A stretch of DNA of 64,000 nt. Source: Siphonodentalium dalli (taxonomy: Eukaryota > Mollusca > Scaphopoda > Gadilida > Siphonodentaliidae). Shown piece after piece: positions 10,943-61,689 of the stretch; position 1 is the stretch's first letter; each line of letters opens with the position of its first letter. The position numbers and the translations under genes are program-made. The stretch spans positions 94,063,343 through 94,127,342 of the forward strand of contig CP136065.1 in the NCBI GenBank assembly GCA_032622095.1, in the 5' to 3' direction. The notes under the pieces were generated by a model, which was not told the DNA's origin, did no database searches, and was given only the letters and a program-made list of their open reading frames with translations.

Positions 10943-11334
10943 AGGTACTCAATCCGATCAGAGGGTCCCCATCTCAACAGATTCCAACAACAACAAAATT
11001 TTATCAAAGGTCACTTTAGTTATCAGAATCGATTAATTATCCAAAAATAATGCTAACGACTGTGAACTATCGTATATAATTGCCCAAAGTGTGTTGTATA
11101 TATATAGCAACATTTTGTTCAATGGAGTTCAGTATCGAGAGTATGTCGGTCGGCTTTTTCGGTAAACTTCTGGGACAGAAAGTATTCCCGATAATGAAAA
11201 ATAATAGATTTCTAAAATCGATATCTAATAAATCTGAGCTTTGATGAGTTGCTTCCTCGACTCGAATCAAATATTTTTGACACCCGACGCCATTGAAATA
11301 GTAATTGAGAGGAGTTTTATCGGATTAAGTACCT
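10943..11334. mobile_element. TTAA-bounded element, family F
   Basis: Both ends are inverted: TTAAAGGTACTCAATCCGAT at 10939 and ATCGGATTAAGTACCTTTAA ending 11338. A TTAA lies just outside each end (10939-10942 and 11335-11338). A second nearly full-length copy is at 48630-49098. There is no coding capacity. TTAA as target duplication is inferred by comparison with the proven cases in this window. Confidence 0.65.
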
Positions 11335-11338
11335 TTAA

Positions 11339-12618
11339 ACTTATTGAAATCTTATTGAGGTGATTGACTTTTACAGATAATTCCCTGCATGGAACAGTAA
11401 TGTTTATATTCATAACAATGGTTTTGATATGAAGAATCGATTTTGGGGAGTTATCATCTATAGTTTGAGCCACACGTACATGTAACGTGTAGCTATACAC
11501 GTAGCGTGTATTGTCATTGTCAACGGAGGTCGCCCGACTCGCGTGATCATTTTGGCCTACACGGGCAAACCGTTTAGAGTGTGTCCAACGAAAAGCAGAC
11601 GGTGTTTGTAGCGAAGTGGAAAAATCCAATTTTCTTATTACCGAATAAGCGATCAGTGCTGTGCATGTAGATTCTACGGCGCGAAGAGATCTTAATTTGA
11701 TTGAAACCATTTGAGCGCATCGATGGTCGCATTGTGGCCAATTGTTTTGGTTCCGTGAAAATATCTGACTGTTCCGGCCATGTGCATCTCCGTAGCAATA
11801 CCATATTAACACACATTACAAGTTACAAGTACGTGTAGCTGAACCTGGCTATTAATAAAGAAAATTAGAACAATGTCGATCTGTTTTCAAATGTATACTT
11901 GTTGATGACAGTTGTTTTACATACTTTTTTTGTTTGTTTAATTTATCTTATTTCGCATGAACCCACTTCAATTGCCTTGGAACCCTTTAAATACAACTCG
12001 ACGTTGCTAATTTACCTTAGAAGTTAGACTTCTTCGCCATGTAGACATTCTGCTAGTAGTGTGCATGCACGGGTATGGGGTCAGGGTGTTGGGGTTGATC
12101 CAATGTCCCTTAACCACAATATGGGAATTATTTCCCAGAAAATGGTTGAAATTAATCTCATATTTTACTATCCAACCTCCATTTAATGTAAAATTTGTCA
12201 AAGATAGTCGAATGTAAGAGTTGAATATTTTTCGACTTTCGATCAAACTTTAGACACAAATATACGTCTCAGTTCGAAAACTTCCGACCCGCACTAAAAG
12301 AATTGAAAAATTCCATGTTCAATTATCAGTCGGAAAAAAATTAATCTTAAGTCCGTCCCTTAGGCTTAGCGAGTCGCCAATAGAGATACGAATTTCAACC
12401 TGTGAGTTTATAATATGTGCCCGAGTCTTATTATGCTTTGTAAAAGTAAAATTTTAAATAATTAGTATATATCTTTTAATCCCTTGGTTGTCAATATCAT
12501 ACAAAAGATGATGGACAACTCGATTTTAACATATGTATAGAGTAGTGGTTCCTGAGCTGTCAACTTTCCCTGAGGGCTGTCATAATATTACTATGTAAAC
12601 ATCGCAAAGTTCCCATCA
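11339..12618. other. region upstream of the TMC first exon
   Basis: No repeat or gene is recognised. A 181-codon minus-strand frame covering 11267-11812 runs into the end of the family F element and is judged spurious. The promoter of the long TMC transcript should lie here, but I cannot point to a TATA box or initiator with confidence. An in-frame TAA about 11 codons upstream of the ATG at 12619 closes the frame. Confidence 0.4.
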
Positions 12619-12703
12619 ATGAGCGATAACGAAGAACAGTGGACAAGACAAGCACTGCTTCGTGATGATTCCGGAAGTTCTGATTCGCACAATGATGGAG
12701 AAA
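12619..12703 (+). CDS. TMC exon 1a, candidate first coding exon of the long form
   Basis: It encodes MSDNEEQWTRQALLRDDSGS and eight further acidic or Ser/Asp-rich residues, then a GT donor at 12704 (GAAA|GTAATA), leaving phase 1. The next exon begins with exactly the two bases needed. The joined protein reads on through NDGETAADDSDSRYSW, a continuous acidic Ser/Asp-rich region typical of a cytosolic TMC N-terminus. An in-frame stop lies upstream. If unspliced, the frame ends at a TAG seven codons after the donor. The donor matches consensus only moderately. The assignment rests on phase and composition. Confidence 0.6.
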
Positions 12704-14651
12704 GTAATACAGATTAGATATTTATTGGGGGAAAACTTCGAAAGTTTGTCACCGACTGCGTTGACAAATGCAACTACGGAACGCCGTTTCGTTAAATACT
12801 TTATACGATTACCTGTTAAGGCCTAACGTTTTTTCTAAAATACCTGATATTTTGAATGGATTTTCTCTATAGCTATGTAGTAAAAGCTCATTGATATCGG
12901 TATATGTTATGTATATGAGACATATGTTAACAAAATTCTTACTACTAAGTTAGAAATGATAAGACTGCATAGGGCATGTCATGACCTGAATCATGATCTA
13001 TATACTTTATTACTTACAAAGGCCTTATAATCAGGGGTGGTACCAGCGGGGGCTACAGTCCCCCTTTAGCAAAAATTGTGAAAATCACTTGCAATTCATG
13101 TCTGGATTTATGAAAAAGCTCCTCCTGCAGTTTGCATCACATATTAATGCAATATATTGTTATTGATACCTTTGAGATGTATCATGATGATGGATTTTTC
13201 AAAGTTTATTCCTTTCTCACTTTAGAATCTTGGGAAGACCATTCTGGTTTGGGCAACTTAACTCTGATCAACTCAATTAAGAGTCAATTTACAGTTTATA
13301 TCGTAGGGGCTTAGAACTCTATGATATTGATGTTGACACAAGCCCCTGCTGAAGATGTACACTACATACACTGATGTTAACAGAAAATAAAATATCCTGG
13401 TAGGATTGTTTCCCTTTTCTTGACTTAGAACATTGTTAGAGGATATTATAAAAAGGTGATATTAGGACTTTATAGAACTGTTACTCAGTTTAGTGTGTTT
13501 TTTTAATTATTGTTTCTAAATTTTTGCTGTTCCACATTCATCATCAATTAGCTGCCTCCAATAATTTTCACAAACAGTTCGTTATCTTTTATTATGCATT
13601 GTCACATCTTACTATGATCTTAGGTCTTTAGGATCACATTACTTGCCTCAGTGTCAGGTTATAATTCATAGGCTTAATTGTCATATTCATTTAATCAAAC
13701 TTATTAATTCTGTTGGTAGCTTTTAATTGTTTTGGGTCTTGGCTTATCTAGTTCGTTAATCTTAATTGCCGTATTCAATCAGTCAACACTTTCTATTTCC
13801 ATTAACATGTTTTACTTGACACCCTTTACTCATTGGTTAATTCAGCTTAGCATTTCTCACCTCCAATTGTATATAAAACCCTTCAACTCTAGACTTAATA
13901 AAGGACATTTGATCTAGAGTGGTCACTATATTGTTTCACATCAGTAGGATTAAAATTGGACATATCAAGTTGCAAGGAATTACCTGTTGCATATATATGT
14001 TATATTCATTTTGGAAAACCAGCTCATTGTAATTAAAAGTTATTCACCTACATCAGACTCATTCATTTAATGACATTGGACATCTCCAGATCCCGATTAT
14101 TACATCTACAATAATTCTACCCTGTTATAATAGGCACTCAATATCTTATTGGTGTATTCAACTGCTAGAGTTTGTATCAAGTGGGACCTGAAAAACTGGG
14201 ACAATTTTACCAACCTTCAGAAGATGTGAAACATATATTGTAATGAAGGAAACATTTTTTTGTGAGAGATTGAATATTTTAAGGTTCATCCAGATTTAGT
14301 CCGTGAACCAGAAGTATATAATCGGAGTCAAGCTCTATTAGTGACAGACCAGCTCTGTTAGAATAGTCGGTTGGATAACTAGGCAATGTGACAAACTCCA
14401 CATGCAACCTGTTTTCAGTGGATGCAAAATCCTAGAACATTTCACATTTACAAACCTGTATTGCATAAAAGGGGACAACAGAAGTTTAGATCTCGTAAGA
14501 GTAGTTGCCCCTTTTCTACACTTTTGAACATTTAGAAACATTGAATGGGCATGCATGTATGTGATTTGGGTACCTTTTACTCCTCTTAAAATTTCTAATG
14601 TAGAGGAGAGAAACATTACCAATATTTCATTTAATACTATTAATCTATTAA
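12704..14651. other. intron between TMC exons 1a and 2a, left part
   Basis: No clear repeat copy is seen until 14648. At 13034 the text CAGGGGTGGTACCAGCGGGGGC looks like a hAT-type end, but no matching opposite end with 8-bp duplication was found. The rest is AT-rich without features. Confidence 0.4.
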
Positions 14652-14975
14652 AAGGTACTGCACACTGAAACCGGCCATTATGGTACCATCTCCTTTTATA
14701 TTTAACAGAATATATGCAACAAATGAATGAATTTGAGCCATGGATTAGTGCAAAATACACTTGTATGCTCTATGAGCAATGCAAATAACATGGTAATTAT
14801 AATGAAAATGAATCTATTTTCATGGTAATTACCATGTTGTTTGCATCGTTCATAGAGCACATGAGTGTATTTTGCACTCATCCATGGCTCAAATTCATTC
14901 ATTTGTTGCTTATATTATGTTGAGTATAAAATCAAATGGTCTTATAAATGGCTGATTTTAGTGTACAGCACCCAT
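14652..14975. mobile_element. TTAA-bounded palindromic element, family H
   Basis: The two halves are near-perfect complements: AACAAATGAATGAATTTGAG near 14717 faces CTCAAATTCATTCATTTGTT near 14887. The outer ends are AAGGTACTGCACACTGAAAC and TAGTGTACAGCACCC, with TTAA outside at 14648-14651 and 14976-14979. A sister copy is at 39003-39326. The whole unit could fold into one long hairpin with a short loop. Confidence 0.7.
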
Positions 14976-17580: not shown

Positions 17581-17964
17581 AGATGGTCTATCTTTCCTAT
17601 AACAAGTTTTATATAGTTTCCTGGGTATAAAATAATAAATATGAATGAAGACCCCTGTCCGGAAACACTTCTATCACTTAATATTTATTTTATTTCAAAT
17701 TTTCTGGTATAATATACATACAATAAAATTTGGGACATTTTATGACTCGCATTCTTTCGGAGAGTAGCTTATGCGGGATAACTTTATCTAAAATTTCTAA
17801 AAATACTATTATAATTATTGCATTGTATAAGAAAATATCTATATAAAATAAATTTTATCACAAACTGATAGAAGCTTTTCCAGACAAGTGTCTTTGACTC
17901 ATAATTATTATTTTATAACCTGGAAACTGTTTATAAAACATATTTAGGAAGAGATAGACCATCT
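17581..17964. mobile_element. TTAA-bounded inverted-repeat element, family J
   Basis: The left end AGATGGTCTATCTTTCCTAT and the right end GAGATAGACCATCT are inverted, each flanked outside by TTAA (17577-17580 and 17965-17968). The arms extend about 70 bases (GTATAAAATAATAAATATGA against TCATAATTATTATTTTATAA). Related copies are at 26272-26630 and near 57690-57720. Confidence 0.65.
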
Positions 17965-23650: not shown

Positions 23651-23827
23651 GTCCTGAACAACAACAGTAACCACAATCTGTCAGCACCTAATGAAAAGCC
23701 ATGTAATCCCGTTGCTCATAGCGGATAATTATCACCTGCAAATGAAGTTCGGTGGGGGGGGGGGGATATGAAATGGTTCCTTATGTCCGTCCATTTGTCT
23801 GTCTATTAGTAACAAATTTCTCCAAGC

Positions 23828-24268
23828 CTTGAAATAGTGTGTCTGTCATTTGCAGAACGATGTCCCCAGAGGGTGAATTAAGAGACGCTATCCCACACAG
23901 TTGGCAAGCATCACCAATTTCACCCTTTGGTGACCTCATTTGCTTTAGGCCTCAAATGTTATAGGAGACCTAGGATCAGATTGAAGATCCTCAGTTCAAG
24001 TTGGTGATGTTTACCCATTAATCTCCTCGATTAAGCAATTTATCTTCTGAAAATCAGGGGGATATAGAAACTGAACAGAAGAGAAAAAATTAACTAAAAC
24101 AATGTTAATTTGAGACTATAGATACTTTCCAGAAGATGCAGCCTAAGCAGAATGAGGTCCCCAGAGGGTGAATTTGGTTATGCTAGCCCACTGTGCGAGA
24201 TAGCATCACTAAATTCACCCTCTGGGGACCTCATTCTGCAAAGTCAGACACACTATTTCCAGACTTGA
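23828..24268. repeat. family C two-hairpin element
   Basis: The outer arms read AAGCCTTGAAATAGTGTGTC and, on the right, GACACACTATTTCCAGACTT. Two hairpins sit inside, each with GTCCCCAGAGGGTGAATT facing AATTCACCCTCTGGGGAC. Between them is a 200-base unique part with CTAGGATCAGATTGAAGAT and TTCTGAAAATCAGGGGGATA. At least ten related copies exist in the window, most in TMC introns. Confidence 0.75.
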
Positions 24269-24699
24269 TCATATTTGCCAAAAAATTTGAAATTTATAAC
24301 GGTTTTTACTTGGCAGTTTGGAGATGGGCGAGTGTGGTTTACAACTTCCACATATGGCGATTCCTATTCCCCAATTCAAAATGTAAACACATAGTACACA
24401 CACGTGTAACCATGGTGCCATATTGCATGTCTATTTGCATGATAAAAACACAATTTCCGATTTGTAAATGATTATATGTTTGTATCCACACATCAACTAT
24501 CACAACATACCGTATTCTTGTTGATGGTGATACTTTTTATCATCTTAATCCAAAATTAATGTGGGATCGCCGCTGATCATGCAGGGAGCCGTGACTTTGT
24601 GTGACCTCTCATAACGGTGTCTGCACATTTCTGTACTATCTCTGGAAGAAGTCAGTAGAATTTTTGCCAGGCCGCCAAATATTCCAGGTGGTGAAAAAT

Positions 24700-24840: not shown

Positions 24841-24885
24841 ATGTGTTATACATTGCATTTTAAAATATCATTTTCTTTCTTCCAG

Positions 24886-26270: not shown

Positions 26271-26271
26271 C

Positions 26272-37039: not shown

Positions 37040-37430
37040 CCCTTTACCCAACAGAAGGGCCCTGTGCCAATGCATTCTCTTATATATGCGAGTCGACCAT
37101 AGGTCGCCTCGCATATATAAGAGAATGCATTGGCTTAACACATTAAAAATTATAAAATTGTTAAAGAATGTAAGAAAAAATGGTAAAAAGTGTTAAAAAA
37201 AGATTTTTTTAGGCCAATGCATTCTCTTATATATGCGAGGCGACCTATGGTCGACTCGCATATATAAGAGAATGCATTGGCACAGGGCATAACTGTAACT
37301 ATCACAATGTGGTCAAGGAGCCGGTTCCAATGATATCCATATTTGTATGGTTCTATTGAGACAGACCGAAGATATTTTAGGCTGTTGAAGCTTTATTTGG
37401 CCGGGTTTGGCCGGTTTGTTGGGTAAAGGG
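37040..37430. mobile_element. TTAACCCTTT element with paired palindromes
   Basis: The ends are CCCTTTACCCAACAG and TTTGTTGGGTAAAGGG with TTAA outside both (37036-37039, 37431-37434). Two palindromes of about 65 bases lie inside (37069-37134 and 37214-37281) with arms such as GCATTCTCTTATATATGCGA and its complement. The right palindrome is also the reverse complement of the left (AGTCGACCATAGGTCGCCT against AGGCGACCTATGGTCGACT). Between them is A/T-rich sequence. The 150-base right part contains GTGGTCAAGGAGCCGGTTCC. Sister copies are 47594-48033 and 54926-55411. Confidence 0.85.
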
Positions 37431-39002: not shown

Positions 39003-39326
39003 AGGGGTACTGTACACTAAATCCAGGCATTTATGGAACCATCTCCTTTTATACTCAACATAATATATGCAACAAATTAATGAATTTGAGCCATGGATTA
39101 TTGCAAATTACACTCATGTGCTCTATGAACAATGCAAACAGCCAAACAACATGGTAATTATAATTAAATGATTTTATGGCTCCAGCCATTTATTCATCGT
39201 TTATTGAACACACAAGTGTATTTTGCACTAATCCATGGCTCAAATTCATTCATTTGTTGCATATATTCTGTTGAGTATAACAGGATATGGTTCCATAAAT
39301 GGCTGAATTTAGTGTACAGTCCTCCT
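39003..39326. mobile_element. TTAA-bounded palindromic element, family H
   Basis: The ends are AGGGGTACTGTACACTAAAT and TTTAGTGTACAGTCCTCCT, with TTAA outside (38999-39002, 39327-39330). The inner arms (AATTTGAGCCATGGATTA and TAATCCATGGCTCAAATT) match the 14652 copy. Confidence 0.72.
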
Positions 39327-43864: not shown

Positions 43865-44120
43865 CCCTTTCATGACGGGAGCTGCGCTGGTGCAGCATTA
43901 AAGATCCTGTGCCTGTGATTCTCTTATATATGCAAGTCTCCATAGGGAGCATCGCATATATAAGAGAATGCACTGGCTTAACAATGTCAAGGTAAATATT
44001 GTTAGGCCAATGTATTCTCTTATATATGCTAGGCTTCCAATAGGAGACTCGGATATATATAAGAGAATGCATTGGCACAGGGTTTTCACAAAATTTTAGA
44101 AATCACCAGTCACGGAAAGG
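43865..44120. mobile_element. TTAACCCTTT element with two palindromes, CATGACGGG subtype
   Basis: TTAACCCTTTCATGACGGGA opens it at 43861 and CACGGAAAGGTTAA closes it at 44124. The two TATATA palindromes are at 43917-43968 and 44014-44072. The left part holds GTGCAGCATTAAAGATCCTG. Relatives are at 16048 and 61356. Confidence 0.8.
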
Positions 44121-44938: not shown

Positions 44939-45190
44939 CCCTTTCTATATAGTCTTAATTAAGCATCATTGATGAGTAGTTATCCCATAGGATATATTCA
45001 GATAATAAGTTCAAAAGGTCGTTTGTTGAACTTATTATCTAAACATTTCCCTCAATAAAATAGGACCCCTTCTGTGTTTTTATTTATCTGTCATCTGCTT
45101 CTGTCACTTGTACATCCCTGTAAATCAAAATAGACCATTCAGATGTACACTTTATAACTGACTGGGAGAATCCATTCAGTATAGAAAGGG
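44939..45190. mobile_element. TTAACCCTTT element, family G, near full length
   Basis: TTAACCCTTTCTATATAGTC at 44935 faces TTCAGTATAGAAAGGG at 45190. The right TTAA is mutated to TTTT. An internal inverted pair reads GATAATAAGTTCAAAAGGTC against GTTGAACTTATTATC. It lies in the intron between exons 4 and 5. Confidence 0.72.
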
Positions 45191-46789: not shown

Positions 46790-47300
46790 TCATCTTATTG
46801 GTATATTCATAATTTTCTCTCAAGCTATTGTAAAGTGTACATTCTTGTATAAAATGTTCTTCATTTTCAACTTTTTTTTCACAATTGGGATAATATCGTT
46901 CATCAAAATCTTTATTGGCTTATGATATCTTCCTACCTCGCTCACAAGCTTATATGAATTTTAGTTAACCCTTTGAGTGCCAGGGGCCGATCTCATCGGC
47001 CCTAAACCTACAAAATAAGTCTGTTAAAGAATATAAGAATAAATTATTAAAATTGTAAAAAAAAAAATTTAAATTTTTTTTTTTTTTTTTTTTTTTTTAG
47101 GCCAATGCATTCTCTTATATATGCGAGGCGACCTATGGTCGACTCGCATATATAAAGAATGCATTGGCACAGGGTATATGGGTTGATACAAAAATCGGAC
47201 CTGGCACTCAAAGGGTTAATGCTGAATGTATTTATAAGGGTATGTTGAAAGTAAAATAATTTTGAAGTCTGAAATCCTCAACTAACTCTTTATAAAACAG
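46790..47300 (-). pseudogene. LINE ORF2 C-terminal fragment, interrupted by a TTAA element
   Basis: The minus strand reads PNCEKKVENEEHFIQECTLY, the same fragment as at 41740-41990. It is split after GAATTTTAG by the element at 46969-47215, and the other half (GCTGAATGTATTTATAAGGG) resumes after it. Confidence 0.68.
46969..47215. mobile_element. TTAACCCTTT element, GAGTGCCAGG subtype, with proven TTAA duplication
   Basis: The ends CCCTTTGAGTGCCAGG and CCTGGCACTCAAAGGG are perfect inverted repeats with TTAA outside (46965-46968, 47216-47219). Inside are GGGGCCGATCTCATCGGCCC, an A/T run, and one TATATA palindrome at 47103-47165. The uninterrupted host sequence is present at 41780-41830 with a single TTAA, so the duplication is shown directly. 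Confidence 0.93.
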
Positions 47301-47593: not shown

Positions 47594-48033
47594 CCCTTTA
47601 CCCAACAGAACGGCCCTGTGCCAATGCATTCTCTTATATATGCGAGTCGACCATAGGTCGCCTCGCATATATAAGAGAATGCATTGGCTTAACATATATT
47701 AAAAATGATAAAATTGTCAAAGAATGTGGAAATTATTATAAAAATTGTTAAAAAATGTAAGAAAAAATTATAAAATTGTTAAAGAATGTAAGAAAAAATG
47801 GTAAAAAGTGTTTAGGCCAATGCATTCTCTTATATATGCGAGGCGACCTATGGTCGACTCGCATATATAAGAGAATGCATTGGCACAGGGCATAACTGTA
47901 ACCATCACAATGTGGTCAATGAACCGGTTCCAATGATATCCATATTTGTATGGTGTTATTGAGACTGACCGAAAATATTTTAGGCTGTTGAAGCTTTATT
48001 TGGGCGTTTTTGGCCGTTTTGTTGGGTAAAGGG
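47594..48033. mobile_element. TTAACCCTTT element with paired palindromes, 29 bases inside the intron after exon 6 donor region
   Basis: The ends CCCTTTACCCAACAG and TTGTTGGGTAAAGGG have TTAA on both sides (47590-47593, 48034-48037). The palindromes are at 47622-47689 and 47816-47884. The spacer between them has three imperfect copies of AAAATTGTTAAAGAATGTAAGAA-like text. It is the longest of the three sister copies, by that internal amplification. Confidence 0.85.
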
Positions 48034-48629: not shown

Positions 48630-49098
48630 AGGTACTCAATCCGATAAAACTCCTCTCAATTACTATTTCAATGGCTTCGGGGGTCAAAAATATTTGATTC
48701 GAGTCGAGGAAGTCACCCATCAAAGCTCAGATTTGTTAGATATCGATTTTAGAAATCTATTATTTTTCATTATCGGGAATACTATCTGGCCCAGAACTCA
48801 GTCAAAATTGCGTTAAAATTACCACTTGATTTTAGAGTTATCCATCCTTGTCTGTTTGAATAGATTTGGAGTACACATCCAGAGCAGATTACGGCAGTTA
48901 TTAGTACTCATCTCGAGAACATAACAAATTTCAAAAATCAATATCTAATAACTCTGAGCTTTGTTTGATGGGTTCCTCGACTCGAATCAAATATTTTTTA
49001 CCCCCAAAGCCAAAGAAATAGTAAAATAGGACCTTCTGATCGGATTGTTGTTGTTGGAATCTGTTGAGATGGGGACCCTCTTTACGGATTGAGTACCT
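48630..49098. mobile_element. TTAA-bounded inverted-repeat element, family F
   Basis: AGGTACTCAATCCGATAAAA and CGGATTGAGTACCT are inverted ends with TTAA outside (48626-48629, 49099-49102). The arms extend through GATTCGAGTCGAGGAAGTCA and its complement. The right part contains GTTGTTGTTGGAATCTGTTG, also present inverted in the 10943 copy. Confidence 0.75.
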
Positions 49099-49197: not shown

Positions 49198-49660
49198 CAG
49201 TAATGACCTAAATATTCAACTCCTTAACCACAGCAGAATTATGGGTAACTTATCAGGATTTAGTTGGAGATATATAAATTCTGAAAAGTTACCCATAATT
49301 CTGCTGTGGTTAACCCTTTGGAGAGTATTTGTAACTGACGTCAAGAGTAAATTTAACGTAATAGCAATAATTATTAACAAGTTTGGATCAAAAGGGTCCT
49401 ATAATTCGTTTTAATTTATGTGCATTTTCTGTTAACGTGTGTTATCATAATCGATTGCACTTATACATTTGGGACATTATATTATTCAAAATAACTCCTA
49501 TACAAATCATTTATAAATCAGATGATTTATTAAAGTTATGTCTACATAAAATGACACTTACTGAAACAACATAAATGTCGTTCCAGTCGCAACTGTACAG
49601 CGACATATATGTCATTCTACTCGCCAAAGGGTTAAGGAGTCGATTATTTGGGCATTACTG
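49198..49660. mobile_element. TA-type MITE, family B, split by a TTAA element
   Basis: CAGTAATGACCTAAATATTC and ATTATTTGGGCATTACTG are its ends with TA outside (49196-49197, 49661-49662). The right arm is interrupted at its own TTAA by the element at 49314-49631. Confidence 0.88.
49314..49631. mobile_element. TTAA element with CCCTTTGG ends, nested; target duplication proven
   Basis: The ends CCCTTTGG and CCAAAGGG are inverted, with TTAA at 49310-49313 and 49632-49635. The host MITE normally reads CTGCTGTGGTTAAGGAGTCG (for example at 21085-21104 and 42051-42070) with one TTAA. Here it reads CTGCTGTGGTTAA, insert, TTAAGGAGTCG. The interior is not shared with the other TTAA families and has no long frame (the best is 63 codons). 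Confidence 0.93.
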
Positions 49661-50019: not shown

Positions 50020-50270
50020 ATGTACAGTAATAATGCCCTAAATAATCATTACTGTAATCATGTCTTGAAATAGTGTATGTGACCAAAATGAGGTCCCCAT
50101 AGGGTGAATTTAATGAAGCTATCCCACATGGTGTGCTAGCATTGACAAATTCACCCTCTGGGGACCTCATTCTGCTTAGGCCTCAACTGTTATTGGAAAT
50201 GTAGGATCAGATTGAAGTTTCCCAGTTGAAGTTGGTGATGTTCACCCATTAGTAACCTCGATTATACTTT
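50020..50270. repeat. tiny family B palindrome followed by family C copy
   Basis: TACAGTAATAATGCCCTAAA...ATCATTACTGTA at 50024-50058 is a minimal 35-base family B palindrome. From 50066 a family C copy follows (GAAATAGTGTATGTGACC, GAGGTCCCCATAGGGTGAAT, facing AATTCACCCTCTGGGGACCT). Confidence 0.7.
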
Positions 50271-50329
50271 TATTATATTTTAGCCCCACCCTTTTAAAAA
50301 CATGCAGCTATTTTGCATCCCTGAAATTG

Positions 50330-50700
50330 AACATGGTCTGTAAAGTCTGTAAAACAACTATCGTCAACATGTTCATGTAAAAATGGACCAATGTCTTTCT
50401 TATTTTCATCACTAATAACTCTCCAATAATGAGATTTTGCATATTGAAACAATAGTTATGTAATTATTACTGTTACAGTGGCATTGCATATAAAATTTCC
50501 AATCAGATATCAAAGTTTAATAAAAAATTCGGAATATATTATTTAGAATAAAATATTTGAACTTACTACACACGATCAGCAATGTTTGATGACAAATCAC
50601 TGTAACAATTGTGTTGACATAACAATGATTTCAATCCGTGAAATTTCGTTTATTGGAGAACTATCAATAATGACTGTAAGAACAAAGTTTATCAATGCTC
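50330..50700. repeat. family I inverted repeat
   Basis: CTGTTACAGTGGCATTGC near 50470 and CACTGTAACAATTGTGTTG near 50600, with AACTCTCCAATAATGAGATT and its counterpart, form the arms. The same family appears at 10718, 45370 and 57015. Confidence 0.6.
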
Positions 50701-50904
50701 TTATTGGTGACTTTTATAGTTTTTGCATATTTACCAACTGTGAGTAACCTTGGGTTCCTTTCAGTAAACCCACTAAACTATAAACATAGTACTAGTATAC
50801 CAAATACTTATTACCTAAATTATCATAGTTAACCAGCAACTGATGAGAACTCATCCCGACAAATGCTATACTAAGATAGTTAGGCTTCCCTTACTAAACT
50901 TTAA

Positions 50905-51328
50905 CCCTTTGAGTGCCAGGTCCGATTTTTGTATCAACCCATATACCCTGTGCCAATGCATTCTCTTATATATGCGAGTCGACCATAGGTCGCCTCGCAC
51001 ATATAAGAGAATGCATTGGCCTAACAATTTTTCATCATTTTTTACAATTTTTTACAATTTTAATAATTTTTTCTTATATTCTTTAACAGACTTATTTTTG
51101 TGCCAGGGAATCTGGGGAATCTCATGTTTTTCATGGGCATCAAAATTATTACTATGAATACTTGGTGATAGTTTGGAGTTATAACATGCCCCTAAGATTT
51201 TATCCAGTTTGTTTTTAAATTCGCTGTAGCATGCTTAAGCATACCGAAAAAATTCAACCCCAAAAAAAGGGCCGATTTTACACACCGTACATTAGGGCCG
51301 ATGAGATCGGCCATTGGCACTCAAAGGG
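50905..51328. mobile_element. TTAACCCTTT element, GAGTGCCAGG subtype
   Basis: CCCTTTGAGTGCCAGG and TTGGCACTCAAAGGG are the ends with TTAA at 50901-50904 and 51329-51332. It holds one TATATA palindrome (50955-51020). A segment with GGCATCAAAATTATTACTAT near 51135 is unique to this copy. Confidence 0.82.
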
Positions 51329-51332
51329 TTAA

Positions 51333-51602
51333 CTGAGTGCCAGGTCCGATTTTTGTATCAACCCATATACCCTGTGCCAATGCACTCTCTTATATATGTG
51401 AGTCGACCATAGGTCGCCTCGCATATATAAGAGAATCCATTGGCCTAACAATTTTTCATCATTTGTTATTATTTTTTACAATTTTTTACAATTTTAATAA
51501 TTTTTTAAAAATCTAAACAAACAAATTTTTTTTAATTTTTTAGGGCCGATTTTACAGACCGTAAATTAGGGCCGATGAGATCGGCCCCCGGCACTGAAAG
51601 GG
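51333..51602. mobile_element. second GAGTGCCAGG element, sharing a TTAA with its neighbour
   Basis: It starts directly after the TTAA at 51329-51332 with CTGAGTGCCAGG, having lost part of the CCCTTT end, and closes GGCACTGAAAGG|TTAA at 51606. One palindrome lies at 51380-51443, and GGGCCGATGAGATCGGCCC is present near 51570. The two elements are head-to-tail neighbours on one TTAA. Confidence 0.78.
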
Positions 51603-51758
51603 TTAAATAAAACTTACATACCGTAGTGGTCACCAGTACCCTTTCAGGCACATTTTATAAGCAGCTGATCAAAACCTCACAGTATTTGTATTATATTGTT
51701 ATGATAAAATACCAACTTTCAAAGGAGATTAACCGGTTTAAACTTTTTTTCTTTTCAG

Positions 51759-51920
51759 TCTGAGTTGATGTATCAAAGAATTCGATGGAGGAAACAGAAT
51801 AGGAAAACTTTACAATGGTGTCGTTTATACATCATCAGATTCTTCGTTAATATGTTTGTTATCGGAATTCTAGGTGCCTCTCTCTATCTCATATACTGGA
51901 CCAATCAGACTCTATTGGAA
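51759..51920 (+). CDS. TMC exon 8, third membrane segment
   Basis: The acceptor is TTTCTTTTCAG and the donor GGAA|GTAAGT. It encodes SELMYQRIRWRKQNRKTLQW followed by CRLYIIRFFVNMFVIGILGA and SLYLIYW, then TNQTLLE. The basic start is the end of the cytosolic loop; the rest is a membrane helix. Phase is 0 on both sides. Confidence 0.95.
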
Positions 51921-51944
51921 GTAAGTCATTTTTGTTAAGAATCT

Positions 51945-52571
51945 TCGTAATTTTCAGAATATTAATCTATTTTGAAGATAATTCGCAAACGAAATGCATG
52001 CATACTATTATAGGTACTCAATCCGACCAGACGCTCCTAAATTACTATTTGTTTGGCTTCGGGGTGAACAATATTTGATTTGAGTTGAGGAACCCACCCA
52101 TCAAAGCTCAGAATGATCAGATATCAATTTTTGAAGTTTTTTATTTCTCGAGATGTGTAATAATATGTGGCCCAGAAATGCATGGTCAAACAGAGAGTCT
52201 CTGACCAAAATTGCAGATGAAGATGGATAACTCTAAAATCAAGTGGTAATACGGGTCAAATTTCGTGATACTTTAGTGATAATACGGCCATATTTTGTTG
52301 AACAAATTGTTGATAAATAACAAGTTTTGGGAAATTTGATAAATCGTATTTTGAAGAAATGTTGTTGTTGTATCTTGATGGTATGGGGGCCATCTGATCA
52401 GATTGGGTTTATTCTGTTTTTTTCTTTTTTTTCGTTTCTTCCATTCCAGCTAATACACTTTTTTGTGGTCTTTGTAATTTTCTGAATATTCATTTTGAAT
52501 AAAATTCACCAGTGAAATGCATGGAACAAACAATTAAGTTTATTCTGTATTTTTCTTTTCTTTCATTCCAG
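51945..52571. repeat. intron with tandemly duplicated acceptor region and a family F insertion
   Basis: Text near 51953-52010 (CGTAATTTTCAGAATATT ... GAAATGCATG) recurs at 52470-52523, and the polypyrimidine-plus-AG text TTTATTCTG...CATTCCAG at 52407-52449 recurs at 52539-52571. A family F copy (AGGTACTCAATCCGAC ... GATCAGATTGGG, about 52012-52406) lies between the left pieces. The first acceptor is therefore a decoy copy of the real exon 9 acceptor. Confidence 0.65.
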
Positions 52572-52732
52572 ATAAATACAGTAGAGTTAACTCCATTCGT
52601 CGCTTTAGTGGTGCAATATCTTCCGTCTATAACCATTAGCTTCCTGAACTTCATAGTTCCTGAAATATTTGCTAAAATAGTTCAGTTTGAGGATTATCTC
52701 CCTGGATACGAGATAAAACTCACACTCGTAAG
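52572..52732 (+). CDS. TMC exon 9, fourth membrane segment
   Basis: The acceptor is CTTTCATTCCAG and the donor AAG|GTAAGA. It encodes [20 protein letters not shown] then [20 protein letters not shown] and [18 protein letters not shown]-x3-x-LNF and P-x-IFAKI-x2-x-E-Y-P-G-EI are highly conserved in TMCs. Phase is 0 in and 2 out. Confidence 0.96.
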
Positions 52733-53571
52733 GTAAGAAATATAGAATATACGCATAGTGTTTCTGAATAACAAATTTAATCCACGAGTGGGATTGGCGA
52801 TTTACACCACGATCTTCAGCCACGATCTTTACAATGTGAAAATCGTTATTTCCAATTTAAATCGCCATCAAACTATTTTCAAACGACGAAAACATGATCC
52901 GTTTACGCTTTGCAACGGCACCCATTTTTCGATACCACAGGTGTGGATTAAACCTTTACCTTGCTGCGCATTGATATCAGAACACTGGAAAGTAAGTAAA
53001 CAACACAGACCTCTTTTAAGTGAACAAATTAAAAATAACTCACACCGGTGCACTTGTCCGGGTCACGAAAGGTCAACCTTATCGTAGTTTCTGTTCAAAT
53101 TGTATGGAGAAAGTTTAATCCACTCTGCGAAGTTTAATCAACAGTAGGTACTTTTAATCAACAGGTGTTGATTAAATTTAAAATTTAAACAGATTGCTTT
53201 ATTTATTTAGTAAGATAGCTAGGGGATCGTGGTATAAAACAAAATTATCATCACTAATCATAAAGTGATATATCATCTTGTGGTATCAGCTATTGTTGCA
53301 GGGAAAACCCATGCTAAATATAGAATGTGAAACTTTTCATTAAACTGGTACCCAGCCGGTTAGAGTCAGAAAGGATGAATGACTGATGCACTCTGGTAGT
53401 GATTGGTACAGAACCTTTCCAAACATACCTTTATACTTCAACAATAAAATATTTGAATTAAATTTGTTTTCATCCAAATAACTTTGATATGCATGTCTAT
53501 GTCTTTTGTATGAGATATACATCTAAATCTATCTCACTGTTTTCATACTCGCATGTCTTTCTCCTCCACAG

Positions 53572-53707
53572 ATCTGTATTACTGAGGCTGGCTTCAGTGT
53601 TTATATTGATGATCTCCTTATATGTACAACTAGTGTCACGGCCAGAACTGGCCGAGTGTGGAAACAAACTGTTTAGCAATGCAAATTCTTCCTCTGTTGT
53701 TGTCAAG
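53572..53707 (+). CDS. TMC exon 10, fifth membrane segment
   Basis: The acceptor is TCTCCTCCACAG and the donor AAG|GTAAAC. It encodes SVLLRLASVFILMISLYVQL then VSRPELAECGNKLFSNANSS and SVVVK. The first half is the helix and the rest a polar extracellular loop with one cysteine. An NSS glycosylation motif is present. Phase is 2 in and 0 out. Confidence 0.93.
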
Positions 53708-53755
53708 GTAAACTTTGTCTTATTTAAATATGGTTTGTCTCTTCCAAAACAAGCC

Positions 53756-53970
53756 TGCAAATAGTGTGTCTGTCATTTGCAAAATGAGGTTCCCAGAGGG
53801 TGAATTTATTGACGCTATCCCCCAAGGCGGTCTAGCATTACCAAATTCACCCTCTAGTAACTAATTCTGCTAAGGCATCAACTGCTATGGGAGACCTTGG
53901 ATCAGATAAAATTTTCCTGGTTTAAGTTGATGATGTTCACCGATTAGTCACCTCGATTATGCATTTTATC
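53756..53970. repeat. family C copy
   Basis: CAAATAGTGTGTCTGTCATTTG begins 50 bases after the exon 10 donor. Hairpin arms GAGGGTGAATTTATTGACGC and CCAAATTCACCCTC follow, then the unique part. Confidence 0.7.
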
Positions 53971-54222
53971 TTCTTTATTATCTTAAAATAATAAAAATGA
54001 TGTCGAGGACACCTATCCGGAAACTTTTCTATCAATTAATATTGATGCAAAATTTACAATAGAATCCTCAGTGAATTGTTTTTATGGCTGCTAATGATTA
54101 AAGCCACATGGCGGTTTGCCACACAAAATTCACCCAAGACCAAACAAAATTAATGTTCTGTTTCTCAAAATCAAAATGATAAATCATCCTGTCACTTGGT
54201 TTCACCACAAATTAATATTAAT

Positions 54223-54370
54223 TGATTAATTTGTTTGTTATATTTCAGTGCTGGGAGACGTATGTTGGACAACAGATATACAAATTAGAACTAATCGATT
54301 AATTTGTTTGTTATATTTCAGTGCTGGGAGACGTATGTTGGACAACAGATATACAAATTAGTACTAATTG
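54223..54370. repeat. 73-bp tandem duplication of the exon 11 acceptor and exon start
   Basis: The block from GATTAATTTGTTTGTTATAT through CAGATATACAAATTA is present twice with a 73-base period (acceptor AG at 54247-54248 and 54320-54321). The first copy, read as exon, gives CWETYVGQQIYKLELID then TAA. Only the second copy continues in frame. Confidence 0.92.
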
Positions 54371-54419
54371 ATTTCTTTGTTATCATCCTCATCACATTCT
54401 TTGTGGAGTTCCCACGAAA
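54322..54419 (+). CDS. TMC exon 11, TMC signature and sixth membrane segment
   Basis: It encodes CWETYVGQQIYKL, the family signature, then VLIDFFVIILITFFVEFPRK. CWET-x-VGQ-x-YKL matches the TMC domain motif. The acceptor used must be the second of two duplicated copies, because the first leads to a stop 17 codons in. The donor is CGAAA|GTGAGT. Phase is 0 in and 2 out. Confidence 0.96.
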
Positions 54420-54495
54420 GTGAGTATAAAAGCAAGTTGACAAAACAAAATATTAGTGATAATAATGATACCTATTGCATATGTAACCTAGAGCC

Positions 54496-54625
54496 CATAG
54501 TTGCTCAGTTGGGGAGGATTATATACTGTACCAGGGTTTGCGCTCTCGGCAAGCATTGAAATAGTGTGTCTCACATTTGCAGAATGAAATTTCCAGAGGG
54601 AGAATTTAGTGACGCTATCCCACCA
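54496..54625. repeat. short tRNA-like segment followed by family C start
   Basis: AGCCCATAGTTGCTCAGTTGG resembles the 5' part of a tRNA-derived SINE. It runs into GCATTGAAATAGTGTGTCTC and CAGAGGGAGAATTTAGTGACGC of family C, then stops. Confidence 0.4.
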
Positions 54626-54659
54626 TTATAATCAGTAAATATATTTTAAATATGCTGTT

Positions 54660-54905
54660 TTGCCCTTGCATGACTGGAGCTTCCTGAAATTTTGCAATAA
54701 CCTTGTGCCAATGCATTCCCTTATATATGGGAGCCTCGCAGATGTAAGAGAATCCATTGGCCTAATAAAATTTACCTTGACCTTTTAAGTCAGTGCATTC
54801 TCTTATATATGGAAGGCTCTCTATGGGAGACTTTCCTATATCAGAGAATGTACTGGCATGGGATCTTTAATACTGAACCAGCGCATTTCCCGTCATAAAA
54901 CTTTT
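54660..54905. repeat. CATGACTGG-type element with two TATATA palindromes, ends decayed
   Basis: TGCATGACTGGAGCTTCCTG, two palindromes (54706-54758 and 54792-54850), and ATCTTTAATACTGAACCAGC show it to be related to 43865 and 61356. Terminal TTAA sites are not intact. Confidence 0.6.
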
Positions 54906-54925
54906 AAAATGGCCAAACAAATTAA

Positions 54926-55411
54926 CCCTTTACCCAACAGAACGGCCCTGTGCCAATGCATTCTCTTATATATGATGAAACAATTGTTCAAATGTGGCAT
55001 CTTTATGTTCAAATAATTACTCAATAACTATGAATTATCTCCAAAAAATCCCGACTTACAAGTGGATTGATATGGCGGGTCACATATAGGCCTTGATGAC
55101 CGGGAGTATCGATGTATATTGTAAAGTTGTTTTAGGGCCACCTGTATTTTTAACACATTAGAAATTATAAAATTGTTAAAGAATGTAAGAATTTTTTTTT
55201 TCGGCCAATGCATTCTCTTATATATGCGAGGCGACCTATGGTCGACTCGCATATATAAGAGAATGCATTGGCACAGGGCATAACTGTAACTATCACAATG
55301 TGGTCAAGGAGCCGGTTCCAATGATATCCATATTTGTATGGTTCTATTGAGACAGACCGAAGATATTTTAGGCCTTTGAAGCTTTATTTGGCCGGTTTGT
55401 TGGGTAAAGGG
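54926..55411. mobile_element. TTAACCCTTT element with paired palindromes, left palindrome replaced
   Basis: CCCTTTACCCAACAG follows TTAA at 54922-54925 and GTTGGGTAAAGGG ends at 55411 (right TTAA now TTAC). The left palindrome breaks off after CTCTTATATATG at 54972 and is replaced by about 165 bases of unrelated DNA (54973-55140). The right palindrome (55204-55268) is intact. Confidence 0.75.
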
Positions 55412-55415
55412 TTAC

Positions 55416-55615
55416 AGTTATACCCTGTGCCAATGCATTCTCTTATATATGCGAGTCGACCATAGGTCGCCTCGCATATATAAGAGAATGCATTGGCCTA
55501 ACAATTTTTTTTTTTTTTTTTTTTTTTACAATTTTAATAATTTATTCTTATATTCTATAACATACTTATTTTGTAGGTTTAGGGCCGATGAGATCGGCCC
55601 CTGGCACTCAAAGGG
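55416..55615. mobile_element. GAGTGCCAGG-type element, left end truncated, abutting the previous one
   Basis: TATACCCTGTGCCAATGC, the palindrome at 55428-55494, a T run, GGGCCGATGAGATCGGCCCC and CTGGCACTCAAAGGG|TTAA at 55619 match the 46969 family. Its left end fuses with the previous element. Confidence 0.7.
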
Positions 55616-56002
55616 TTAATACTGAACCAGCGCATTTCCAGTCATAAAAATTTTAAAATGGCCAAACAAATTAAAAATTGGCCAAAGAATTTTCCAGCCT
55701 TCATGAATCCTGTTGGCAAAGTTAATCAACACAAGCTTACATGGACAGCTTTAAAAAAAACAATGATGTCATAGAGAATGGTCAAGCTTCAGTGATTTCT
55801 CTACTTAGGGCATATGACCACACAAGATGGTATGCCATGTGAGGGTATGCGCCAGGGACATCCTAGCTCTTGTTTGGAATTTGTGCAAGCAGATCTTGGC
55901 ATTTGGTATTCCATTGAGGTGTCTACAAATGCATGAATTCCTGTTTGTGAATTGCTTTTGGTGTGATGTGATCTTAACCGAATCATGTTTTCTATATTTC
56001 AG

Positions 56003-56116
56003 ACTTATTTATGTCCGATTTAACGTGAAATTTAAATTGGTGGAGCTGATTGGTCAACAGGAATTTGATCTGCAGAGGAATGTCCTTGACATTATATATT
56101 CACAGACACTTTGTTG
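56003..56116 (+). CDS. TMC exon 12
   Basis: The acceptor is TCTATATTTCAG and the donor TTG|GTAAGT. It encodes LIYVRFNVKFKLVELIGQQE, then FDLQRNVLDIIYSQTLC. GQQEF-x-ɸ-x2-NVLD-x-IY-Q-x-CW is conserved in TMC7-type proteins. It is the cytosolic part between two helices. Phase is 2 in and 2 out. Confidence 0.95.
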
Positions 56117-56165
56117 GTAAGTTCTTAAAATAAGAGCAGGTAAAACCGATTTCACTTTGTTGGTA

Positions 56166-56341
56166 CAGTAATGCTCTAAGTAATCGACTTCTTAACCACA
56201 GCAGAATTTTGGGTAACTTTTCAAGATTTAGTCGGAAATATGGCAACATTTAGTATTTAGGGCATTACTGTAGGACATTTAGTATTTAGGGCATTACTGC
56301 TTGTTGCCATTCATCAGAAAGCTCTACTTAGAGCATTACTG
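56166..56341. mobile_element. TA-type MITE, family B, rearranged
   Basis: CAGTAATGCTCTAAGTAATC opens it and AGAGCATTACTG closes it, with TA outside both ends. In the middle TATTTAGGGCATTACTG appears twice (56254-56270 and 56283-56299), so right ends are partly duplicated. Confidence 0.75.
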
Positions 56342-56557
56342 TAAGTTCTTAGAATGAAAGCAGGTAAAATCCACTTTCACAGACCTGTGGCATATGTGGT
56401 AAAAATGCCGCGCAGCTGTCCCTTTCACAGGACTGTAGGCAAAGTTGCATTTAACGCAGGCGGCTACATATATAATGTATATATATAAATGGTGTTTCAT
56501 GCACTAGAAAACTGGTTAGAAGATTGTCAGTTAACTGTTAATTCGTTCTATCTCCAG

Positions 56558-56975
56558 TCAAGTCAGAATATAGATCTTCATACACCACTGGCTAGATCCC
56601 ACATAAACGTTGCTCTCAGCTTTTGCTACTTTGCTGACTAGCCAGTGACTAGCTGTCATTTGTGGTAAGCAGAAGTTATAGAAGGACTCCGGATCGAACT
56701 CGTCTAATTTCTTCAACTTCACCCAGCCATCTTCATGCAGTTCTGATCTAAACTGGACCTTCCGCCATGCTTTTGACACAGTTAAACGCAACCAATTTCA
56801 AAACTTTTTGAAATCGGATTCGTTTAACTGCATCAGCTGCAACCCTGAAAGTGCCGGTGATATATGTATGGTTTGAAACATTTGGTCTAACCCAATAGCC
56901 ACATACGTTGGTCGCATGTGTCAGCCGCAGGTCTGTAATAGCAGCTATTGGGAGGAAGGGTTCCTGGCAGATCAA
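56558..56975 (-). pseudogene. unrecognised minus-strand coding-like segment with a frameshift
   Basis: Two overlapping minus-strand frames (56748-56975 and 56558-56791) have protein-like composition. The first contains NVSNHTYITGTFRVAADAV and the second AWRKVQFRSELHEDGW and DEFDPESFYNFCL. Read in order they look like one domain broken by a frameshift near 56780. ITGTFRV...RSELHEDGW is loosely reminiscent of a CBM21-type glycogen-targeting domain, but the resemblance is weak and I do not assign it. It lies antisense in a TMC intron. Confidence 0.3.
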
Positions 56976-57014
56976 TGGCGAAGCTGGCTCGGACTCATGG
57001 CACTTGCAGTAGGT

Positions 57015-57420
57015 AAATGTGCAAAGAACATAAGTCTGTAAAACATCACCACTAAGAAGAACGTTGAGAAATAGATAAACTTTGTTCTTATCTTCATTAT
57101 TATCTCCAATAAAACAATTAGTGTGTTGAAATCATGTAAACAACTTTTACAGTGACTTGTGAACACACATTACTAATCACATAGTAAGATCAAATATTTT
57201 AATCTAAATATGATTTTTAGAATATTTTTCCAATGCTTTAACATTTTCTGACATTTACCGTCAAGTTTTGATTAAACTTTGGTGTCTTATTGGCCATTGA
57301 TCTGTAATGCCACTGTAACAGTAATGATTACATAACAATGGTTATGATATGCAAAATCTCGTTATGGGAGAATTATTAATAATGAAAATAAAAACGATGT
57401 TTATCTAATTTTAGCTCAAC
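57015..57420. repeat. family I inverted repeat, fullest copy
   Basis: AAACATCACCACTAAGAAGA...ACTTTGTTCTTATC at the left faces GAAAATAAAAACGATGTTTA at the right. TTTACCGTCAAGTTTTGATT and CACTGTAACAGTAATGATTA lie inside. No coding frame is present. Confidence 0.6.
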
Positions 57421-57781
57421 TTGACAAAGCTTATCATATCAACTGTTCTAGATACTTGTTTCCATCGAAGAACTCTATTTTTGTTAGAGGCCTCAGTCAC
57501 CACAGAAAATAGCAGATCACCTAAGATACTTACTGTTAATTATGATGCAAATAAACCACTATGTTATGCTTTCATAGACAAATAATATACATCAGTCATC
57601 TTCAGTTTTATCTGTATTTTATTCACCTAATATCTATTTGTCGTCTTGCAATCAGGATTTATAAAATTTATGTTGTTGTTGCAATTGTGGCCTGGAAGAG
57701 ATAGATCATCTTTAATTTCTTCCATCATCATCTTGGGCTTATTATCGTCAATGCTAATAGATGTTTTTATTTCATTTTCAG

Positions 57782-57857
57782 GGTTGGTCTGTTTTTCAGT
57801 CCCCTGATACCAGTGATGTGTGTTCTAAAGTGCTTTATTTTCTTCTATGTCAAAAAG
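57782..57857 (+). CDS. TMC exon 13, seventh/eighth membrane segment
   Basis: The acceptor is TTTCATTTTCAG and the donor AAG|GTGAGA. It encodes VGLFFSPLIPVMCVLKCFIF and FYVKK, preceded by a split Trp codon. FFSPL-x-P is conserved across TMCs. Phase is 2 in and 0 out. Confidence 0.94.
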
Positions 57858-58032
57858 GTGAGATACTGCAAAGTTTGAAACATAGAGCCAAATACGGTGT
57901 TCAAGCTCCTAATATTATTATATATATTTCATAATCCAAATTACATCCCTCGGTCTGTATCAAGCAATGAAATTGCTGAAATAATATTTCTTGCATGAAC
58001 CTGTATTTACCGGCTTTCTATTTTGCGATGTA

Positions 58033-58209
58033 CAGTAATGCCCTTAATAATGAACTCCTTAACCACAGCATAATTATAGGTAACTGAAATAATCAACTCC
58101 TTAACCACAGCAGAATTATGGGTAACTTTTCAGGATTTAGTCGGAAATATGGCTTGTTGCCATTCATCGGAAAGCTCTCAGTGAGAGCCGATTATTTAGG
58201 TCATTAATG
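58033..58209. mobile_element. TA-type MITE, family B, left end duplicated
   Basis: CAGTAATGCCCTTAATAATG and the CCTTAACCACAGCA block occur once, then AATAATCAACTCCTTAACCA restarts the arm. The right arm is nearly absent apart from GATTATTTAGGTCATTAATG. Confidence 0.7.
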
Positions 58210-58425
58210 TAAGTGTGATAACTCCAACAATCGTTATCTGATTTCAACAAAATTTGCTTCATAGCTTCTACATGTGAATCTCTTGGATGAGTTCAAAAAC
58301 CAGTCTGCCAATTTGTTTTTCAGGAGTAATCCCTCTTTGTTTGTATTTATATTTTCTGTGTGTCCATTTTGTGATACAAGCTTCACTCATTTTGACCAAT
58401 TACAGCTTTGGGTTTTACTCAAGCA

Positions 58426-58886
58426 CAAGGCTGCAAATGGTGTGTTTTTAATTTGCAGAATGAAGTCCCCAGATGGTGAAATTAATGTTGCTACTCCGCA
58501 CAGCGTGTTAGCTAGCTTGCATTACCAATTTCACCATCTGGGGGCCTCATTCTGCATAGGCCTTATATTCTGGGAAGTATCTATAGTCTCAAATTAACAT
58601 GGTTTTTAGTTAATTTTCCCTTCTGTGAAGTTTCTATATCCCCCAATTTTCAGAAGATAAAATGCATATCGAAGGTGACTAATGGGTGAACATCACCAAC
58701 TTCTAATGGGGAACTTCAATCTGATCCTTATATAGGACTCCCATGGCAGTTGAGGCATAAGCAGAAGGGTTTCCAGAGGGTGAATTTGGTTATGATAGCA
58801 TGCCGTGCAGGATAGCATTACTAAATTCACCCTCTGGGGACCTCATTCTGCAAATGACAGCCACATAATTTGCAGATTTCTCAAGC
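58426..58886. repeat. family C two-hairpin element, full length
   Basis: AAGGCTGCAAATGGTGTGTT at the left faces CACATAATTTGCAG at the right. Both hairpins are present (58462-58555 and 58765-58850), and the middle part has the canonical order. Confidence 0.78.
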
Positions 58887-60280: not shown

Positions 60281-60555
60281 GTGAGTTGTATTTGTTTATC
60301 CCTTTCTTTTCTAATGGATTCTGGAATTGTCTATTATTCATTTGGAGGGGTGTTCAGGAACACAATGAGTTGACGAAAAGATAATACAATTGCAGATGAA
60401 TTCATATTCATTTGTGGGAAATATTTAGATAATTAGTTAAATAGAGAGCGTTTGTCTTGAAATCAGCTGGAAAATTACTTTGACCTATATCTTGTCTCTC
60501 GCTCCAAATTACGTAGACATAATTGGAAGGTTCAAATGAGGCATGCCCAATTTAA

Positions 60556-60801
60556 CCCTTTATATTCTAAATGGATTCTCCCACTGTTATGAAAAAATTC
60601 ATTAGAATGATATATTATTCATTTGGAGAGACGTCAAGGATATGAGCAGACGGCAGCCAAACGAAATGCAGAACCATTCATATTCATTCGTGGGAACTGT
60701 TTAGATTATTAACTTCAGGAAAACGACCTATGGTCATTTGTTAAACTTAAATTATTATCTGAACATTCCTACTCATCAATGAGTATTTAGTAAAGCATGG
60801 G
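60556..60801. mobile_element. TTAA-bounded family G element, inverted orientation
   Basis: TTAACCCTTTATATTCTAAA at 60552 and CATCAATGAGTATTTAGTAA with GCATGGGTTAA ending 60805 frame it. The inner pair TTATTAACTTCAGG/ACTTAAATTATTATC is weak. The text matches 44939-45190 in reverse complement. Confidence 0.6.
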
Positions 60802-61355
60802 TTAACGACACATTGTGGGTTCATTTCAAAGAATCAAACTAATAAGTTAATACCTGTACTTCATCTCCACTAAAATAATGTATCAATCAGAATCAGAATG
60901 TCTGATATTCGCACAAATGTAAATATTTACTTCTTCAGAAACCTGTAATTAAAAAAATGTGTATTCTTAAAATAGGCGCCTTATGTGTTGTATAGTCCCA
61001 GGCATGTTCAAAGAGCAAAGCTCGACATGTTTCAGACATATATTTAACATGCATCTGTGCCATATCTGCTATATTTACTTCTTCATGCAGGATGAATTAT
61101 TGTTAAGTAATTATGCGACAATGAATCGGCCAACGTGAGTCACTGTGTGTAATTCCTTTATAACAATTGACGCTGTTTCCACCTTTTTCTGTGTGAAATT
61201 TAATTAGTTAAAATAACCAATCTGAATAATCGATATTTTCTTCTGAAGACCCCAACCAGACATTTACTTCTGGAGTTCCGATTACGGGAGATTGATCTTC
61301 CAAATATCTCTAGTTTTATGCAAATTATTACCAACACTTTAACATATCAATTTAA

Positions 61356-61689
61356 CCCTTCCATGACTGGAGCCTCTTCAAGTTTTGCGAAAACCCTGTG
61401 CCAACGTATTCTCTTATATATGTGAGTCTCCCATAGTGAGCTTTGTATATATAAAAGAATGCATTGGCCCAACAATATTTACCATGACCTTGTAAACCAG
61501 TGTACTCTCTTATATATGTGAGTGTCCCATAGTGAGCCTTGTATATATAAGAGAATGCATTATTTTTGGCCTAACAATATTTACCATGACCCGTGTACTC
61601 TCTTATATATGTGAGACTCACATGTATAAGAGAATGCCCTGACACAGGATCTTTAATGCTGCACCAGTGCAGCTCCCATCATGAAAGGG
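61356..61689. mobile_element. TTAACCCTTC element with three TATATA palindromes
   Basis: TTAACCCTTCCATGACTGGA at 61352 faces CTCCCATCATGAAAGGG at 61689. The right TTAA is now TTAC. Three palindromes occur at about 61407-61460, 61502-61557 and 61596-61638, separated by near-identical GGCC-AACAATATTTACCATGACC spacers. The internal unit has clearly been amplified. Confidence 0.75.

Follow-up and report, generated by a model that had tools for sequence, protein, structure and literature searches.

How can many short inverted-repeat elements with differing ends share one four-base target within a single region? The question is raised by a 64,000-nucleotide stretch of the Siphonodentalium dalli genome (C5:94063343-94127342, hereafter the window; the genome comprises 2.23 Gb in nine contigs), in which an initial annotation had described at least seven unrelated element families bounded by TTAA. 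We sort the 17 listed sites into families A to H and propose that A-E are very probably piggyBac-type and F-H Kolobok-type miniature inverted-repeat transposable elements (MITEs), the target being shared by way of two superfamilies with several lineages each. The ends of the families fall into two sets, CCCTTT in A-E versus AGG or AGA in F-H. Most young copies are flanked by TTAA at either end, insertion sites are seen occupied as well as empty, a coding piggyBac element of the same genome carries TTAA followed by CCCTTT at both ends, and the 5' ends of THAP-transposase elements lie at TTAA followed by AGG.

TTAA-bounded elements in the window

Every site was read in the sequence, and most coordinates of the initial annotation proved exact to the base; its statement that TTAA bounds both ends stands for 13 of the 17 sites and fails at 54926, 61356, 44939 and 55416. 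Family A (ends CCCTTTACCCAAC) lies at 37040..37430, where TTAA is present on both sides and a hairpin core occurs twice inside, at 47594..48033, again with TTAA on both sides, and at 54926..55411, with TTAA on the left and TTAC on the right. Family B (ends CCCTTTGAGTGCC) has TTAA on both sides at 46969..47215, 50905..51328 and 51333..51602; the last two have a TTAA in common, and the left end of the last is eroded (CTGAGTGCC). A fourth B copy, at 55416..55615, is a remnant that has lost its left end and retains its right end (55603-55615) with TTAA. Elsewhere in the genome, at L174 282-683, a family B element adjoins a piggyBac element and one TTAA is common to both. Family C occupies 43865..44120 (left end CCCTTTCATGACGG, TTAA on both sides) and 61356..61689 (left end CCCTTCCATGACTGG, TTAA left, TTAC right), and family D occupies 44939..45190 (ends CCCTTTCTATA, TTAA left, TTTT right) and, in the reverse orientation, 60556..60801 (TTAA on both sides). 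The single family E element, 49314..49631 (ends CCCTTTGG), has landed in a TTAA of a TA-flanked MITE.

The other set, with termini AGGTA, AGATG and AGGGG, has TTAA on both sides throughout: family F (ends AGGTACTCAATCC) at 10943..11334 and 48630..49098, family G (ends AGATGGTCTATC) at 17581..17964, and family H at 14652..14975 (left end AAGGTACTGCACAC) and 39003..39326 (ends AGGGGTACTGTACAC).

TTAA is common in the window, with 550 occurrences. TTAA-bounded pairs of 12-bp terminal inverted repeats (TIRs; at most 2 mismatches, 60-6000 bp apart) number 33, many of them joining different copies, whereas 20 third-order Markov sequences gave 0-6. Comparison with other 4-mers (at most 1 mismatch, 60-700 bp) gives 24 pairs for ATAT, 22 for TATA and 14 each for TGCA and TTAA, a comparison inflated by palindromic 4-mers that sit within long hairpins. 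When the inverted repeat is forced to end at the flank, TTAA retains 9 pairs, to which the element at 50905 contributes with two ends, followed by TGCA with 2 and five other 4-mers with 1 each. One of these nine, 49228-49309, is the interior of the TA-flanked MITE and no TTAA element, which shows that fortuitous pairs do arise.

Flanks and empty sites across the genome

Genome searches gave first-look candidates for each family (F 661, A 581, B 3008, E 1993, H 5474, C 3727, G 3947, D 3808), 40 of which were scored per search; 15 copies per family from outside the window were then picked by hand down the ranking, 120 in total. When each end is allowed to shift by one base, 86 of the 120 have TTAA on both sides, including 15 of the 15 F copies, 14 each for E and H, 13 for B and 12 for A. 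With zero slack the counts are F 15, E 13, H 12, B 12, A 12, D 6, G 6 and C 1, the last being low owing to a C query end that is one base too long. All 12 non-TTAA flanks of G differ from TTAA by one base. Identity to the window copy is 91-99% for F and 78-82% for G. Most sampled A-E copies start with CCCTTT, which fits the terminal motif CC[C/T]T given in PMC2872659, and nearly all F-H copies start with AG, a few with GG, TG or AA, in keeping with 5'-RR...YY-3' termini. TTAA joined to the F end (TTAAAGGTACTCAAYCCG) occurs 41,600 times in the genome (20,764 forward, 20,836 reverse), and the reversed control 0 times. F ends also lie at matching places in near-identical larger copies (L148 14 and L154 25; L179 5371 and L180 5366), and these F elements have therefore been carried along inside the larger copies.

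Joining the two flanks of each of the 86 copies provides a direct view of the target before insertion. Seven of the joined pairs align with another repeat and run through the joint uninterrupted, five of them closely. In these five the counterpart is CTCC-TTAA-CCAC of the TA-flanked MITE for F (L016) and H (L067), GTGG-TTAA-GGAG of that MITE for H (L077), and the inside of C elements for E (L050 and L054). The two weaker cases are E in L056, whose counterpart has TTAG rather than TTAA, and F in L014, where 16 of 20 bases are alike at the joint, the best match having TTAA and others one-base changes. Empty sites are thus found for E in the CCCTTT set and for F and H in the other, and none was found for A, B, C, D or G among these 86 pairs. 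Two internal TTAA of the TA-flanked MITE (TACAGTAATGCCCTAAATAATC...; window 15629, 20924, 32787, 35676, 49195, 56163 and 58030) serve as landing sites of E, F and H. The window E element at 49314 sits in GTGG-TTAA-GGAG, the target used by H in L077, and the same site is unoccupied in the window at 21058, 35828 and 42028; elements with CCCTTT and with AGG ends have therefore used the same target. Unoccupied copies of the five close sites and of the window site at 49314 carry a single TTAA. Since 86 of the 120 copies are flanked by TTAA and the unoccupied repeats hold it once, the sampled insertions are genuine TTAA target duplications.

Coding elements that use the same target

The genome contains 128 matches to PF13843, many within long open frames. 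Ends were sought at 33 of these loci, in 18 over some 2.2 kb to either side and in 15 on the 5' side only. Both ends with TTAA are present at four of the 18 (L141, L142, L144, L151) and one end at six (L145, L148, L149, L150, L153, L154); an end is present at four of the 15 (L167, L168, L174, L176). A strict TIR search in L001-L004, two of which duplicate loci of the 33, gave nothing usable. L142 and L144 are 3.4 kb long and 99.2% identical, begin and end with TTAA followed by CCCTTTATCTGCTATA, and lose their homology at the TTAA. L142 holds a frame of 598 amino acids with PF13843 and zf-Tnp_2, the stop-masked translation of its plus strand giving no match; L145 is a damaged copy of this type, with one end lacking TTAA. 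Altogether seven piggyBac end types were recovered (CCCTTTATCTGC, CCTCTTCGCTGC, CCCTTAAGGGTC, CCCTTTAGCGTT, CCCTTTAGCCCG, CCCTTTACCCAT and CCCTTTCGACGG), of which five start with CCCTTT, one with CCTCTT and one with CCCTTA. The CCCTTT start can thus be taken as a mark of the superfamily, because it is common to five of the seven. The end of family A agrees with those of L150 and L174 at 17 of 20 bases, a value reached by any pair in 31 of 20,000 shuffles, a test that omitted the two 16-base ends.

For the THAP domain (PF05485), 150 matches were scored out of 1013 candidates. Ten of the 14 loci fetched (L125-L132, L134 and L136) are related to each other, and in eight of these homology begins with TTAA followed by AGGGGAA(G/C)GCAACCCACG, within eight different flanks; this start was not seen in L128 and L136. 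At L157 a transposase exon lies beside a THAP exon and scores 21.7 bits with PF20700, under the cut-off of 26.5. This exon has 75 matches in the genome; four follow the THAP exons of L127, L128, L130 and L131 at a distance of about 5-13 kb downstream, in the same strand orientation, one in an open frame of 632 amino acids. A second end type, TTAA followed by AGGATT, is found upstream at L133/L157 and at L138, so the THAP-transposase elements have two end types. L179/L180 show no TTAA boundary. As a route to Kolobok the THAP domain by itself proved a poor guide, since four of five longer THAP loci opened carry PF13359, which we take to be of Harbinger type; the proteins of L157 and L181 presumably resemble Kolobok. 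The combination of THAP, a DDE-like exon, TTAA and AG, traits described for Kolobok in PMC6004289 and PMC9587614, suggests that the THAP-transposase elements are Kolobok-type.

Two near-identical THAP loci extend over at least 6.9 kb (L177, C4:52049800-52058300; L178, C4:265913600-265922100; 99.6% identity). Both carry THAP and transposase exons and have a common 5' boundary without TTAA.

A hairpin core common to families A, B and C

The initial annotation held that interiors do not align across families. This is wrong for A, B and C, which account for nine of the 17 sites and have in common a hairpin core of 75 bp (CCCTGTGCCAATGCATTC...), as in its left copy at 47614..47688 within the family A element at 47594; D, E, F, G and H gave no cross-family match among the 17 window copies (BLAST, E 1e-3). 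In majority-rule consensuses of 16 sequences per family (the window copy and the 15 others), A and B are identical over all 75 bases, and C agrees at 67 and 70 of 75. By contrast, the first 20 bases of each A/B/C pair agree at 11 positions, six of which are CCCTTT. Comparison of the copies of each family shows a core that is somewhat more conserved than the remaining sequence in A and B (0.99 vs 0.96-0.98) and no more so in C (0.93-0.95 vs 0.93-0.94). Folding of one core from each family gives hairpin z values of -14.5 for A, -13.2 for B and -7.9 for C. The core matches rule out complete unrelatedness of all eight families, and A, B and C are, as judged from their sequences, one related group. 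Of the claim of at least seven unrelated families made at the outset, the shared TTAA and the variety of end types are real, and the absence of relationship does not hold for this group.

Proposed origin of the shared target

Based on the above data, we propose that the units are MITEs, which are short, lack coding capacity and depend on transposases supplied in trans. Cut-and-paste transposition is well established for both superfamilies. Each transposase lineage would recognize its own terminal repeat, excise the element and insert it at TTAA, duplicating the four bases; the piggyBac and THAP transposases of this genome probably move the MITEs described here. Several piggyBac lineages and two or more THAP-transposase lineages coexist in the genome, every one with distinct ends, and many end types would therefore meet at one target. 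A 4-bp target common to one region thus needs no common enzyme, as two superfamilies with several lineages each would suffice.

Several observations weigh against this proposal. No end was found at eight of the 18 two-sided piggyBac loci nor at 11 of the 15 5' sides, and none of the families A-H has an exact coding partner among the elements sampled. The comparison of MITE ends with piggyBac ends that the initial annotation had suggested brings A close and leaves B-E at 12 of 20 bases or fewer. Likewise, F-H ends agree with THAP-element ends at just 4-10 of 18-20 bases, L177 and L178 begin with RGGATT and no TTAA, and the THAP elements, L181 included, yielded no 3' end. The Kolobok label draws on THAP, a DDE-like exon with a sub-threshold PF20700 match, TTAA and AG. 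Finally, both TTAA are kept, with one base of slack, in only 5 of 15 C, 7 of 15 D and 6 of 15 G copies, the left flanks of D being uncertain because many of its alignments stop short of the left end.

Could every end type instead be mobilized by one transposase, or a handful, specific for TTAA but tolerant of different ends? TTAA is common to all families and five of them have the same first six bases, CCCTTT, as such an enzyme would predict. However, the CCCTTT and the AGG/AGA ends have only the target in common, the CCCTTT start recurs in five of the seven coding piggyBac end types, and the genome contains many coding lineages whose ends differ, so that we consider relaxed recognition quite improbable. 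Neither of the explanations offered in the initial annotation, a single or few transposases for all ends or selection toward one recognition sequence, is needed with seven piggyBac and two THAP end types at hand. That annotation had also named different superfamilies with fortuitous flanks as evidence against a common cause: there are indeed two superfamilies, but their flanks are not fortuitous. The idea that other superfamilies merely happen to adjoin TTAA gains something from the abundance of TTAA in the window and from the pair held by the TA-flanked MITE. As a general explanation it is nevertheless ruled out by the flank counts, the empty sites and the filtered 4-mer control (9 vs 2 for the next 4-mer); families F, E, H, B and A contradict it as they stand, and even the other flanks of G are each one base off. 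We accord it next to no probability.

A further possibility, compatible with descent from two superfamilies, concerns A, B and C, in which a single hairpin core may have acquired different piggyBac ends. Cores that are identical (A, B) or nearly so (C) under first 20 bases that match at just 11 would be expected from such end swapping, and corals offer a parallel (PMC2872659). A constrained core with fast-changing ends would, however, give the same picture, no intermediate was found, and no target duplication flanking the core is visible by eye; we regard end swapping as possible, at somewhat less than an even chance. The stronger form, in which the core is a real evolutionary unit re-clothed with piggyBac ends, a passenger that tracks successive transposases as in corals, seems to us rather unlikely. 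The A/B/C core, found under different ends, is another case, after the coral elements, of a MITE interior better conserved than its ends, and it thus offers a test bed for how MITEs switch transposase.

Comparison with known systems

Both piggyBac and Kolobok are reported to duplicate TTAA (PMC9587614, PMC6004289), Kolobok termini being 5'-RR and YY-3', unlike those of piggyBac (PMC9587614). The initial annotation knew of no description of so diverse a TTAA MITE set; precedents exist in Xenopus (PMC6004289) and in corals (PMC2872659). In Xenopus the T2-MITEs, with TTAA and AGGRR, comprise 16 major subfamilies (PMC6004289), which resemble F-H in target, terminal AGGRR or AG and number of subfamilies, and THAP and DDE transposases occur in the same genome, as THAP and DDE-like exons do here. 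Among F-H only H fits AGGRR, and no exact coding partner was found in our case.

The coral elements (CMITEs) combine TTAA, six TIR families, an interior more conserved than the TIRs, and tandem arrays (PMC2872659), and a core under different ends therefore has a published precedent. As in A-C, several TIR families cover one conserved interior (75 bases in CMITEs); as in A-E, the ends are piggyBac-like, with five of six listed left ends starting CCCTTT, and tandem arrays are shared as well. CMITEs are about 100 bp long versus 250-490 here, and the cores are likened by description, not by sequence. Beetle piggyBac elements likewise have a common CCCT or CCCTTT start, behind which the TIRs diverge by clade, and duplicate TTAA (PMC12732532); they resemble A-E in this, although they are autonomous elements and the term MITE is absent from that text.

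Other features of the window

A sequence of about 150 bp (CTAAAATTCATATAAGCTTGTGAGCG...) is repeated in inverted orientation at 41792 and 46964, about 5.2 kb apart, beside a family B element. Between 45537 and 50070 the window contains exon-like frames of a transmembrane channel-like (TMC-like) gene. A match to transmembrane channel-like protein 1 (PDB 7usw, E 6.6e-5) was obtained for the open frame 45537-45923, and three frames of this kind gave no TMC domain in Pfam; the window probably represents introns and exons of an animal TMC-like gene. Tandem arrays occupy 25227-25831 (units of 30/60 bp), 29065-29502 (155 bp) and 34124-34430 (122 bp), and dispersed repeats around GAGGTCCCCAGAGGGTGAATTTAGTGACGC occur in both orientations at 23822-32059, 36071-36468 and 50053-58870.

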